From the NCBI RefSeq assembly GCF_014279795.1, contig NZ_CP047945.1:454572-518571 (forward strand): a DNA stretch of 64,000 nucleotides, written 5' to 3'. Position numbers and translations under genes: made by a program. Of this stretch, positions 22,750 through 64,000 are shown piece by piece; the stretch's first letter is position 1, and every line of letters starts with the position of its first letter. The DNA comes from Synechococcus sp. PROS-7-1 (GTDB lineage Bacteria; Cyanobacteriota; Cyanobacteriia; PCC-6307; Cyanobiaceae). The notes beneath the pieces are model-generated. The model was not told the DNA's origin and ran no database searches. It worked only from the letters and a program-made list of their open reading frames with translations.

Positions 22750-23155
22750 TTCGAGTTCAGTTCATTCTGAATGCCCATGCCGGTGTCAAGGAGATTTGGG
22801 GCTGTTTGTATTACTTAGTGGCCTGCATTTGCTTTTGTATGAATAGTTTCTTGTGTGATTTTGATTTTTTTGTTGATAGCGAGCTGCACGAAGATGTCAG
22901 GCCCAGACAGGGGCGCGGCCGGATTGAACCTTTGTAACTCCATGGGGTCTTCTGTGCATCTGCGCCCCTATGCTTCCGCCAGCGGTCCCCTCTTTGGGGC
23001 CCAGCGCTCCAGTGGTGGTCAGGAGTTTGCGCTCCTGGCGCCATTGGCGCCCGGTCGCGGTGACGCTCTGCGGAGCTGCGTCCGGGGCCCCGGTGAACCT
23101 CGTTCACCGGAGGGGTGGCCCACCACCTCGATCCCGTCCCTCGAGGAACGACTCG
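22750..23155 (+). promoter_or_regulatory. psaA upstream region and long structured leader
   Basis: 406 bp without a convincing gene. The first part (about 22800-22880) is markedly AT-rich (runs such as TTTGCTTTTGTATGAATAG and TTGATTTTTTTG) and probably holds the psaA promoter, though I cannot assign a -10/-35 pair. From about 22900 the sequence becomes GC-rich and has several short inverted repeats (22987-22999, 23021-23036, 23037-23051, 23090-23110). The psaA ribosome-binding site GAGGAA is at 23143-23148, 7 nt before the ATG. Confidence 0.55.
23090..23110 (+). promoter_or_regulatory. perfect 9-bp hairpin in the psaA leader
   Basis: CCGGTGAAC, loop CTC, GTTCACCGG: a perfect 9-bp stem extendable by two GC pairs past a bulged A. 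It lies 32 nt before the ribosome-binding site of psaA and has no T tract, so it is a candidate 5'UTR control or stability element. Confidence 0.5.
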
Positions 23156-25459
23156 ATGACCATCAGCCCACCAGAGCGTGGGAGCACCGCGAAGACTCAG
23201 GTCGAAAAGGTTGACAATCCTGCAACCTTTGAGCTGTTCGGCAAGCCCGGACACTTCGACCGTGCTCTCGCGAAAGGTCCCAAAACCACCACCTGGGTTT
23301 GGAACCTCCACGCCAATGCTCACGATTTCGACAGCCACACGAGTGACCTAGAGGAGGTCTCTCGAAAGATCTTCAGTGCTCACTTCGGCCATCTGGCCGT
23401 GATCTTTATTTGGCTGAGCGGTGCCTTCTTCCACGGAGCCCGCTTCTCCAACTTCTCCGGTTGGCTTGCTGACCCCACGCACGTGAAGCCCAGCGCTCAG
23501 GTGGTGTGGCCGGTGTTCGGCCAGGAGATCCTCAATGGCGATATGGGTGCCGGTTTCCAGGGCATCCAGATCACCTCAGGCCTCTTCCATGTGTGGCGTG
23601 CCTGGGGCATCACCAACGAAACACAGCTGATGTCTCTGGCCATCGGCGCCCTGGTGATGGCCGGCCTGATGCTGAATGCAGGCGTTTTCCACTATCACAA
23701 AGCAGCTCCAAAGCTGGAGTGGTTCCAGAACGTTGAGTCGATGCTCAACCACCACCTCGCTGGACTGCTCGGCCTCGGGTCACTGTCCTGGACAGGTCAC
23801 CTTCTTCATGTGTCCCTGCCCACCACCAAGTTGATGGACGCCATTGACGCCGGCCAGCCGCTGGTGCTCAACGGCAAGACCATCGCTTCTGTGGCGGACA
23901 TCCCCCTGCCGCATGAATTCTTCAATCAGGATCTGCTGGCGCAGCTCTATCCAGGATTCGGTGCCGGCATCGGTGCTTTCTTCTCGGGTAACTGGGCTGC
24001 CTACAGCGATTTCCTCACCTTCAAGGGTGGTCTGAACCCTGTGACAGGCAGCATGTGGATGAGCGACATCGCTCATCACCATCTGGCCATTGCGGTGCTC
24101 TTCATCGTGGCTGGTCACATGTACCGCACGAACTGGGGCATCGGTCACTCCATCAAGGAGATCCTCGAAGGTCAGAAGGGCGATCCCCTTCTCTTCCCTG
24201 CCACGAAGGGCCATGACGGCCTGTTCGAGTTCATGACCACGAGCTGGCATGCCCAGCTGGCTGTGAACCTCGCCATGCTCGGCTCCCTGAGCATCATCGT
24301 GGCTCAGCACATGTACGCGATGCCTCCATACGCGTACATGTCAATCGACTATCCGACGCAGATCGGCTTGTTCACCCATCACATGTGGATTGGTGGCTTC
24401 CTGATCGTTGGTGCCGCAGCGCACGCTGCCATCGCGATGATCCGCGATTACGACCCTGCCAAGCACGTCGACAATGTGCTGGACCGGGTGCTGAAGGCTC
24501 GTGACGCCCTGATCAGTCACCTCAACTGGGTGTGCATCTGGCTTGGCTTCCACAGCTTCGGCCTCTACATCCACAACGACACCATGCGTGCCCTGGGACG
24601 TCCCCAGGACATGTTCAGTGACTCAGCGATTCAGCTGAAGCCTGTGTTCGCTCAGTGGATTCAGGGTCTGCATGCCGCTGCTGCTGGCAGCACCGCTCCC
24701 AACGCTCTTGCGGGTGTGAGCGAGGTGTTCAACGGTTCCGTCGTTGCCGTGGGTGGCAAGGTCGCAGCTGCGCCGATCCCCCTGGGCACCGCAGACTTCA
24801 TGGTGCACCACATCCACGCCTTCACGATCCACGTGACGGTGTTGATCCTGCTGAAGGGTGTGCTCTACGCCCGGAACTCCCGCCTCATCCCCGACAAGGC
24901 CAACCTTGGCTTCCGTTTCCCTTGCGACGGCCCCGGCCGTGGCGGCACCTGTCAGGTGTCCGCATGGGACCACGTGTTCCTGGGTCTGTTCTGGATGTAC
25001 AACTCCCTGTCCATCGTGATCTTCCACTTCTCCTGGAAGATGCAGAGCGATGTGTGGGGAACGGTGAATGCTGACGGTTCCGTTCAGCACATCACCAACG
25101 GCAATTTCGCCAACAGCGCCATCACCATCAACGGCTGGCTGCGTGATTTCCTGTGGGCTCAGGCCGCTCAGGTGATCAACAGCTACGGCTCCAACACCAG
25201 TGCTTATGGCCTGATGTTCCTTGGTGCTCACTTCGTCTGGGCCTTCAGCCTGATGTTCCTGTTCAGCGGCCGCGGCTACTGGCAGGAGCTGATCGAGTCC
25301 ATCGTCTGGGCTCACAACAAGCTGAAGGTGGCCCCGGCCATCCAGCCCCGTGCGCTGTCCATCACCCAAGGCCGTGCCGTGGGTGTCGCCCATTACCTCT
25401 TGGGCGGCATTGCGACCACATGGGCCTTCTTCCACGCCCACATCCTTGTGGTCGGCTGA
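23156..25459 (+). CDS. psaA: photosystem I P700 apoprotein A1
   Basis: A reaction-centre core subunit binding P700, A0, A1 and the FX 4Fe-4S cluster in the thylakoid. The 767-residue length is standard, starting at [10 protein letters not shown] 62-codon in-frame extension to 22970 is ignored because it has no PsaA likeness and the RBS lies at the inner start. The FX ligands are Cys590 and Cys599 ([10 protein letters not shown]). Eleven hydrophobic helices with many His chlorophyll ligands (for example [11 protein letters not shown]) are visible. It is co-transcribed with psaB 22 bp downstream. Confidence 0.98.
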
Positions 25460-61393: not shown

Positions 61394-61738
61394 TCAGACT
61401 TGAATCGAGCAGGAAGAGCCGCGTTGACTGCGGCTCTCCTGGAGATTGTCGGCAATGCGCTGAAGTTCTTGGATCGCTTCAGCACCTTCGAACTTCACCA
61501 ATTCGCGTCCGTTGCGCGACTCAACCCAGCTGATTCCGAAGTCGGACACGAGAAATCGCACCATGTGCTGATCACCGAGCTCGGCGACAAATGAGGCTCC
61601 AGAGCCATCGCGACCGTCGTCGCAGACGTAGCAAGTTGCCGTAACGCCAAGCTTCTGGAGGCTTTTGGCGAGAGCCTGAAGGCTCATCACCAGATCCTGG
61701 ACAACCGTTCGATATTGCTCTGAAAGACGCAAAAACAC
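61394..61738 (-). CDS. DUF1815 family protein
   Basis: A small cyanobacterial family of unknown function. From GTG 61738 the frame reads MFLRLSEQYRTVVQDLVMSLQALA (family start with FxRLxEQYR), 114 residues; an ATG six codons upstream (61756) is the other option. The LVSDFGISWVE and KFEGAEAI blocks match. Two cysteines (TCYVCDD) and a third near the tail are present. It converges on recA. Confidence 0.85.
   Translation of the reverse strand: MFLRLSEQYRTVVQDLVMSLQALAKSLQKLGVTATCYVCDDGRDGSGASFVAELGDQHMVRFLVSDFGISWVESRNGRELVKFEGAEAIQELQRIADNLQESRSQRGSSCSIQV
61415..61437 (+). terminator. hairpin after recA, inside the 3' end of the DUF1815 gene
   Basis: An 8-bp perfect stem (AGAGCCGC/GCGGCTCT) with a 7-nt loop lies 38 bp beyond the recA stop, on the opposite strand from the DUF1815 coding sequence. 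No T tract follows. It may cap recA mRNA; confidence is low. Confidence 0.35.
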
Positions 61739-61812
61739 TTCGATCACCCGACGCATGAGTGAATTCTAAAGGTTTTCTATTGATTTGGTTGAGTCTTCGG
61801 TTCTTGGTTCTT

Positions 61813-62052
61813 TCAGGGTGTGTCTGCCAGTGTCCACCAGCCCGCTGCTGGACCAACAAATCGCACCACCACCCAAAACACAACCAGCGCTCCGATTCCG
61901 ATCCAAGCGCCGCGCGTGGTGATTGAAACGAACTGCGATGCCTGGCTTCGGGTTAGGGGTAACCAATCAATGAAGCGCTCGGCATCCTTGGGATTGGTTT
62001 TCTGCTGTCGGGGCGGCAGGCCCTGGCTGGCGCGACGGCGGGCTTCTCCCAT
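61813..62052 (-). CDS. DUF2839 family membrane protein
   Basis: A 79-residue cyanobacterial protein: MGEARRRASQGLPPR at the start and one strong membrane helix at about 50-70 (IGIGALVVFWVVVRFVG). The family has unknown function. It lies 37 bp after the stop of the DinG-like gene, on the same strand. Confidence 0.8.
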   Translation of the reverse strand: MGEARRRASQGLPPRQQKTNPKDAERFIDWLPLTRSQASQFVSITTRGAWIGIGALVVFWVVVRFVGPAAGWWTLADTP

Positions 62053-62089: not shown

Positions 62090-63538
62090 TCAATCAGGTA
62101 GCAGCCGCTGCAGTGAACTCCAAGGCTCCAGAGCTTGGAACACCTGCTCTCCCCAGCTTCGGCTTCGCACTCGACCATCCAGGATGGCGAGACGGCCGCC
62201 ACTGCGTCTGAGGGGGGCAATGGCCGGAATCAGGATGGCCAAAGCCTCCGGCAGAAGCAGGTCTCTGAACCAGTCGCGACCTTGTTTTTTCAAGACTTTC
62301 ACGCGCGCGGCCGTGAGTGGATCTTCCAAGCTTGCGATCGGCAGCAGGGCTGTGATGAGTTGATCCGGTTCCGGAAGGGTTGGCTGATGGGTCATCCACC
62401 AGCCCCAACTGGTGCAGATCACGCCATTGGGTTTGTCGCAAGCGCGATCGATGGTCACTCTGCTGCCGAATTCCGCTGCTAGTTCGCTGGCCAGTCTCTG
62501 CAGCAGGGCTGCGTCATTCGCAAGAACCACCGTCAGACCTGAGCGGCCAAGGATGAGACGCCGGCACTGATCGAGCAGATGGCTGGCGTAGATCTCCGTA
62601 TTGGGCAGGGGTTGCCTGCGGGGGGCGTAGATCGGGATCGGTTCACTGCGTGGCGGCTCGCGCAGATCGATTCGGATCACGGGATCGTCACGGTCGGGAG
62701 GTGTTGGATTGGAGGCTCTGCGGCATCCCCCATCGCCATGAATCAGGGTCCAGGGTCGCGTGCTGAACAGGTCTTGGATTTCCTCAAGGGGCTCAAGGGG
62801 CTGAAGCGTCCATTGCCACTGCAGGTGTTCATGGTCGAGTCGGGCCCAGCTCGCCCAGGTGTCCATCCCCATGGCAGCGAGGTGACTCCAGGGTTCCGGC
62901 GCCGGGCCGGTCAGTTGCAGTAAGTCGCGGACGCTCGTCAGGGCGCTGTCCGGCATGGAGAGCTGACGGCACTTGCCGGAACCACGGGCGAACAGTTGTC
63001 GGCTCAAGCGTTCATGCAGGTCCAGAAGTCCTTGGCCTGTGGCGGGAAAGGCGGTTCTGAGTTCTTCCCAATGGCGCGCCTCGAGCTGCACGGCCATGGC
63101 GTCCCGGAGTCGTGTAGCCAGATGCTCTGCTTCTGGAATCACCAGGTGGTCGTCATGCCGGAGGTGCCCGAGGCGGTACGCCGTGATCAGCTGGCTGGGA
63201 GTGAGTAGCCACAGTTGATCGCTCGTGGGTGGATGAACACTGCTCCAGCATCCGAGTCGTAGGTCGCTCTGGAGCAGACGGGGACGCTCCAGGCTGAGAA
63301 AGCGTTGCCGTTGCTGCGGATCCAGTACCAGAACGGTGTTGCGGCTCTGGAGGCAGAGGGGGACGAGCAGGGCAAGCCACCAGCGTTCATCACTACCGGC
63401 AGAAAGTTGGATGCTGGTTTGATCGCGGCGGCGCAGGCTACGGCCCACCAGCCGACTCAAGGTCAGTTGATGCTCCCACTGTCCGGCATCTGCACGGAGC
63501 AGATGCTTCAACTGCTGATGGGCCTGAACTTCCAGCAT
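62090..63538 (-). CDS. DinG-like helicase-family protein with degenerate motifs
   Basis: 482 residues that keep the outline of the DinG/XPD helicase group: N-terminal domain, a YRLGHLRHDDHLVI run before the motif II position, and a C-terminal LLPEALAILI...GGRLAILDGR block. The Walker A position (46-54) reads SAGSDERWW instead of GxGxGKT. Motif II is IPEAEHL (134-140) instead of DEAH, and motif VI lacks the QxxGRxxR pattern (residues 447-456 GGRLAILDGR). ATP hydrolysis is unlikely. The frame is long and intact, so the fold may be kept for another job. Confidence 0.6.
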   Translation of the reverse strand: MLEVQAHQQLKHLLRADAGQWEHQLTLSRLVGRSLRRRDQTSIQLSAGSDERWWLALLVPLCLQSRNTVLVLDPQQRQRFLSLERPRLLQSDLRLGCWSSVHPPTSDQLWLLTPSQLITAYRLGHLRHDDHLVIPEAEHLATRLRDAMAVQLEARHWEELRTAFPATGQGLLDLHERLSRQLFARGSGKCRQLSMPDSALTSVRDLLQLTGPAPEPWSHLAAMGMDTWASWARLDHEHLQWQWTLQPLEPLEEIQDLFSTRPWTLIHGDGGCRRASNPTPPDRDDPVIRIDLREPPRSEPIPIYAPRRQPLPNTEIYASHLLDQCRRLILGRSGLTVVLANDAALLQRLASELAAEFGSRVTIDRACDKPNGVICTSWGWWMTHQPTLPEPDQLITALLPIASLEDPLTAARVKVLKKQGRDWFRDLLLPEALAILIPAIAPLRRSGGRLAILDGRVRSRSWGEQVFQALEPWSSLQRLLPD

Positions 63539-63637
63539 CGGCTAACCCTACGGAGCTCTCTGATCAGGAATGGTTCAACCTGATCATGCTTGCTTTCTTG
63601 AGTGGTGAAGCAACATGGTGGCCTTGGCTGGGCAGGC

Positions 63638-64000
63638 ATGGGAGAGGAGCGGAGCACTGGGCTGCAGGCTCTCGGGAAGGTTGGTGTGGTGGGCCTCGGT
63701 TTAATCGGTGGCTCGATCGCTCTCGACCTTCGTGAGCAGGGTGTGCCGGTGACCGGGCTTGTGCATCGCGACAGCACAGCGGCTCGTGCCATGCAGCGGG
63801 GGCTGGTGGACGAGGTCAGTTGCCATCCCTTCTGCCTCAGCGACTGCAACACCGTGATCCTGGCCCTTCCGATCGAAGCGCTGCTGACGCCTGAACCGCA
63901 GTTGGTCGAGGCACTACCGGCCCATGCCGTTGTGACGGATGTGGGGTCCGTGAAAGGGGCGGTGCTTGAGGTCTGGCGCGACCGCCACCCTCGTTTCGTG
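63638..64000 (+). CDS. tyrA: prephenate/arogenate dehydrogenase, partial (cut by window edge)
   Basis: The first 121 residues of a TyrA-family enzyme of the tyrosine branch, from ATG 63638. The NAD(P)-binding VGVVGLGLIGGSIALDL is in the expected place (about residues 15-31), followed by the V-T-D-V-G-S-V-K block. It runs off the end of the window. It and pheA, at the other end, take prephenate to the two aromatic amino acids. Confidence 0.9.
   Translation, partial: MGEERSTGLQALGKVGVVGLGLIGGSIALDLREQGVPVTGLVHRDSTAARAMQRGLVDEVSCHPFCLSDCNTVILALPIEALLTPEPQLVEALPAHAVVTDVGSVKGAVLEVWRDRHPRFV

Follow-up and report, generated by a model that had tools for sequence, protein, structure and literature searches.

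Why a cell would keep an intact gene for a helicase that has apparently lost its motor is the question raised by an open reading frame at positions 62090..63538 (-) of the 64,000-nucleotide stretch of Synechococcus sp. PROS-7-1 DNA analyzed here (the window). The frame begins with ATG, runs uninterrupted for 482 residues, and was read in the initial annotation as a full-length protein of DinG/XPD layout that had lost Walker A, the DEAH box and motif VI. When aligned with DinG and YoaA of E. coli and with 14 catalytic DinGs, the protein was collinear from end to end, which bore out both the layout and the losses. The Walker A lysine column is occupied by W53, within a motif I remnant (63377..63409 (-), residues 44-54, QLSAGSDERWW, with SAGSDERWW at residues 46-54). 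The DEAH column reads P135-E-A-E138 (63125..63136 (-), inside IPEAEHL at residues 134-140), and the SAT column reads H-G-D. The motif VI remnant (62201..62230 (-), residues 437-446) has P438-A-I-A-P-L-R-R445 in the QGxGRLIR column, with P442 in the place of the arginine finger and a new, family-invariant arginine at R444. A region of ~100 residues between motifs Ia and II, which carries the Fe-S cysteines in DinG, is deleted. The window protein thus lacks both the DinG/XPD helicase motifs (Walker A GxGK[ST], DEAH, QGxGRxIR) and the Fe-S domain of YoaA/DinG type.

The window protein and 49 relatives were used to build an AlphaFold2 model (pLDDT 87.3). It matched E. coli DinG with a Foldseek E of 4e-17 and S. 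aureus DinG with a Z of 23.9 (rmsd 4.0, 464 residues), and its superposition on DinG structures across residues 3-481 indicates that the DinG fold is present; motifs II and III are separated by a helical bundle (residues 136-221). Relocated ATPase motifs, which the initial annotation had proposed to look for by alignment with DinGs, were found elsewhere in the protein neither by the full-length alignment nor by superposition of the model. Family profiles recognized the C-terminal end: Helicase_C_2 from Pfam gave a sub-threshold match (15.3 bits versus a cut-off of 25.3), and the YoaA and DinG profiles from NCBIfam gave weak matches there (41 bits versus a cut-off of 680 for YoaA). As modeled, the protein consists of MD1, MD2 and Arch alone; it has no Fe-S or pseudo-Fe-S domain and no ATP-binding residues. 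This is the composition given for sDinG (short-type DinG), a kind of protein named in section 3.9 of a 2025 review of DinG-like proteins with Nostoc sp. PCC 7120 as exemplar (PMC11981726).

Losses at the ATPase site and of the Fe-S region are a family-wide trait, not peculiar to PROS-7-1. All 24 aligned sDinG members carry Y, W or H where Walker A has its lysine, none has the arginine finger, and the columns of the Fe-S-domain arginines R117 and R211 are gaps in 24/24 and 23/24. Degeneracy private to picocyanobacteria is ruled out by the absence of the motifs throughout the family. A few members hold motif fragments, such as DGAH in the protein L057, and these could be taken as traces of a residual or divergent ATPase that works through unconventional residues. 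However, lysine and arginine finger both score 0/24, and published AlphaFold 3 modeling of the Nostoc protein failed to place ATP (PMC11981726); we consider such an activity very improbable.

A matching open frame was present in 59 of 60 relatives searched, which excludes chance. In a profile search over 291 genomes of the phylum, sDinG was detected in 139 of the 141 genomes that belong to the window's class. Both exceptions came from a single family (f23), and the gene was absent from all 38 sampled genomes of that family (8 genera; e.g. G058, G319, G345). It is kept in streamlined genomes of 1.6-1.7 Mb. In other classes, nine genomes gave partial matches only, to frames of 639-1021 residues that are catalytic DinGs with EAGTGxGKS, DEAH and QGFGRLIR all intact. 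No match was obtained by tblastn against 50,697 phage records, which were searched for phage carriage.

Long catalytic DinGs occur in only 6 of 116 sampled class genomes (four from family f13, one from f53 and one from f20), and the genomes that bear them also carry the short form. Deep-branching Gloeobacterales-like genomes have a catalytic DinG beside sDinG (L209-L212 and L214, in G358, G337, G048, G343 and G351), and f13 and f53 resemble Gloeobacterales by their place in the tree. One lone long DinG (L213), which has DEMH for DEAH, accompanies sDinG in G055 and was possibly acquired separately. No Helicase_C_2 match at E 0.001 and no catalytic DinG were found in the PROS-7-1 genome; above the Pfam cut-off, 71 of 116 class genomes have a Helicase_C_2 match, mostly sDinG. 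The co-occurrence in Gloeobacterales-like genomes would suit a regulatory or antagonistic subunit acting on catalytic DinG, or on another helicase in the same cell. But since PROS-7-1 and most of the class are without catalytic DinG, partnership with it cannot be the general role of sDinG and was rejected as such, and we regard a regulatory subunit of either kind as unlikely.

In a maximum-likelihood tree of 40 sequences (LG+F+I+G4), the short proteins grouped as a single clade with UFBoot 100, its stem 1.70 substitutions per site long. L057, from an f13 genome that still has a catalytic DinG, was deepest within it, and the nearest catalytic relative of the clade was not firmly resolved. The most economical reading is that a short motorless form arose from a DinG-type helicase before the radiation of crown cyanobacteria and that the catalytic copy was subsequently lost in most lineages. 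Distribution, tree and motif table support this timing, by which the Fe-S insert, the motifs for ATP binding and hydrolysis and the arginine finger of an Fe-S helicase of DinG/YoaA type would all have been gone by the time the crown group radiated. The sDinG proteins L180 and L181, from small (1.6-1.7 Mb) Prochlorococcus-like genomes (G208 and G153), are intact and much faster-evolving, with a branch length of 1.94 for L180.

Selection was estimated from the 40 closest pairs among 30 members of the window's genus. dN/dS was about 0.06-0.13 in all but one pair, and the exception, at 0.43, is uninformative since its dS was only 0.011. In the pairs examined, segments corresponding to the former motifs were constrained like the rest of the protein. 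Such values mean that the gene is not decaying neutrally, so the comparison across strains suggested in the initial annotation ruled out neutral decay and upheld its view of a retained pseudo-enzyme, not a pseudogene. The loss of every ATPase motif and the speed of one high-light-Prochlorococcus-like lineage, that of L180, could still be put down to a slowly decaying pseudogene that has stayed open by luck. That explanation is contradicted by open frames in the sampled members, by dN/dS of about 0.1 and by retention in streamlined genomes, and we give it almost no credence. With a helicase fold and a gene under selection, the window protein would belong among the pseudohelicases, and the best explanation is that it is a picocyanobacterial member of sDinG, an ancient pseudohelicase.

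Residues kept from DinG cluster in HD2. The P motif region (62318..62341 (-), residues 400-407) is retained, with P400 in 24/24 members, as is D422-W423-F424 (62267..62275 (-)), in which W423 and F424 form a W-F pair before LP in 24/24. F424 aligns with F638 of E. coli DinG, which stacks on ssDNA deoxyribose; the positions of P400 and F424 have been described as P motif or ssDNA contacts in that enzyme (PMC6300356). This conservation fits a DNA-binding role; the suggestion in the initial annotation, that the protein is retained to bind DNA or to act as a partner, is plausible. HD1 and Fe-S contacts to DNA, on the other hand, are gone from the window protein. Across the family, two Fe-S-domain arginines among the E. 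coli ssDNA contacts are deleted, and the other sugar-stacking residue, F615, is aliphatic in 20/24 members. With F615 mostly lost and all Fe-S-domain contacts gone, nucleic-acid binding could be weak or lost. These lost contacts also suit a pure protein scaffold, in which the fold would no longer bind nucleic acid and would instead provide a platform on which, for example, DUF1815, DUF2839 or some unrelated complex assembles. The same can be said of the near-neutral charge of sDinG (pI 6.2-8.7) and of E3, H7, W21, H23, R33, G358 and R444, which are fixed or almost fixed across the short family, are not shared with catalytic DinGs and point to a new surface. Against a pure scaffold stands the invariance of the W-F pair and the P motif, whose residues line the ssDNA site in E. 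coli DinG, although W423 and F424 are invariant-like in catalytic DinGs too and could be kept for folding alone. Taken as a whole, the residue pattern would fit a protein that lost ATP use but still presents a face for nucleic acid on its second motor domain, together with a newly gained surface. Our best guess, which we hold with a little more confidence than doubt, is a passive nucleic-acid-binding scaffold or sensor; the pure protein scaffold is a possible but clearly less favored alternative.

As the initial annotation had it, a DUF2839 gene (61813..62052 (-)) adjoins the sDinG gene, 37 bp downstream on the same strand, and the two are probably co-transcribed; a DUF1815 gene (61394..61756 (-)) follows on that strand. 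On the other side, a divergent intergenic region of 63 bp (63539..63601) separates sDinG from tyrA (prephenate/arogenate dehydrogenase, 63602..64000 (+)), which continues past the window and was named from the look of its sequence rather than by family scan. The arrangement recurs in other cyanobacterial families: DUF2839 is directly downstream on the same strand in sDinG loci of 14 families, DUF1815 slightly further downstream in 11, and tyrA divergent upstream in 6, with psb28 in its place in some. By psb28 synteny slr1462, termed a hypothetical protein in one paper, is the putative Synechocystis orthologue of sDinG. Proximity to recA, also remarked on in the initial annotation, is real at this locus but carries little weight as a functional hint, being limited to the window's family and one other locus (2.2 kb), and a functional link to recA found no support beyond these. 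The neighbors point to no pathway, and a literature search turned up only passing mentions of DUF2839 and DUF1815. Elsewhere in the window, positions 22967-23159 (+) match the psaA leader RNA family RF01752 strongly (178 bits).

DUF1815 was found in 96 of 116 class genomes and was absent from all 38 genomes of f23, the family without sDinG; DUF2839 is kept in the 4 f23 genomes checked. Because f23 is one lineage and counts as one event, and because Prochlorococcus-type genomes, those of L180 and L181 among them, keep sDinG without DUF1815, we treat the link between sDinG and DUF1815 as a lead only. In one sDinG-bearing genome of the window's genus, the neighboring DUF1815 (G024:C1:434398-434496) matches over only 33 positions in a 54-aa frame and looks like a decaying copy. 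Second copies of DUF1815 were seen at G081:C50:19969-20259 and G349:C1:980074-980370.

In the favored reading of sDinG as a passive nucleic-acid-binding scaffold or sensor, it has been under purifying selection ever since the loss of its motor, as is seen within the window's genus, and without ATP it would be unable to translocate. The retained HD2 groove, formed by the P motif and W-F, may hold single-stranded nucleic acid in a static grip, and a partner may be bound by conserved surfaces particular to the family (the N-terminal E..H and W.H..T..R, GSRV, and R444). The outcome would be a scaffold or sensor, not a motor. Synteny and joint absence make the DUF1815 and DUF2839 products the best candidate partners. 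It is conceivable, though doubtful, that the three proteins form a module that binds nucleic acid without ATP and is found in photosynthetic cyanobacteria alone, in which a motor became a static clamp in their last common ancestor and which nearly all of them need.

The kind of protein has already been described (PMC11981726). What is new here is its near-universal distribution in the class, its origin before the crown radiation, the estimate of selection, the residue-level contrast with catalytic DinGs, the presence of both forms together in deep-branching genomes, the conserved synteny with DUF2839, DUF1815 and tyrA, and one family's lack of both sDinG and DUF1815. An apparent pseudohelicase has been kept by nearly a whole bacterial class since before its radiation, even in 1.6 Mb genomes. 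Class-wide retention, model hosts amenable to knockouts and named conserved residues make its role directly testable. Many members match helicase profiles and are at risk of being annotated as helicases.

Among known systems, the published sDinG is closest. It is described as cyanobacterial, with MD1, Arch and MD2 only, no Fe-S domain and no ATP-binding residues, all of which the window protein shares; partial DNA binding on MD2 was predicted, with no functional study (PMC11981726). Members were reported from Nostocales, Chroococcidiopsidales and Pleurocapsales (PMC11981726), whereas the window protein comes from a marine Synechococcus-type genome and is ~31-39% identical to full-length members outside its family. 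The query in that review was E. coli DinG, with an E threshold of 1e-5 (PMC11981726); a comparable BLASTP with that query and threshold reached none of the sDinG members of our set, which may explain the narrow published range. An extra helix in the ATP site of the Nostoc model was not seen in the window-protein model, which has no helix between strand 39-44 and helix 52-62. The window protein and the Nostoc exemplar are very likely of one family, since an sDinG-type protein is the sole Helicase_C_2 match in most class genomes that have any match.

With E. coli DinG and YoaA, 5'-3' helicases of the XPD family, the window protein shares fold, domain order, the HD2 P-motif proline, the F before LP and the LDxR...YG/WG block, whereas Walker A, DEAH, SAT, motif V, motif VI and the Fe-S domain are missing or degenerate. 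PriA of Deinococcus radiodurans likewise is a bacterial helicase whose motifs are degenerate and which is retained throughout a phylum, and it binds DNA without ATPase or unwinding activity; it belongs to another helicase family, however, and has been proposed to interact with DnaB and to help reload the replisome (PMC4504706). Utp25 also combines vestigial helicase motifs and an intact helicase fold with a non-catalytic role, but it is a eukaryotic, essential DEAD-box derivative that acts in ribosome assembly (PMC9539457). Documented pseudohelicases are few, and two were counted in a 2022 paper (PMC9539457).
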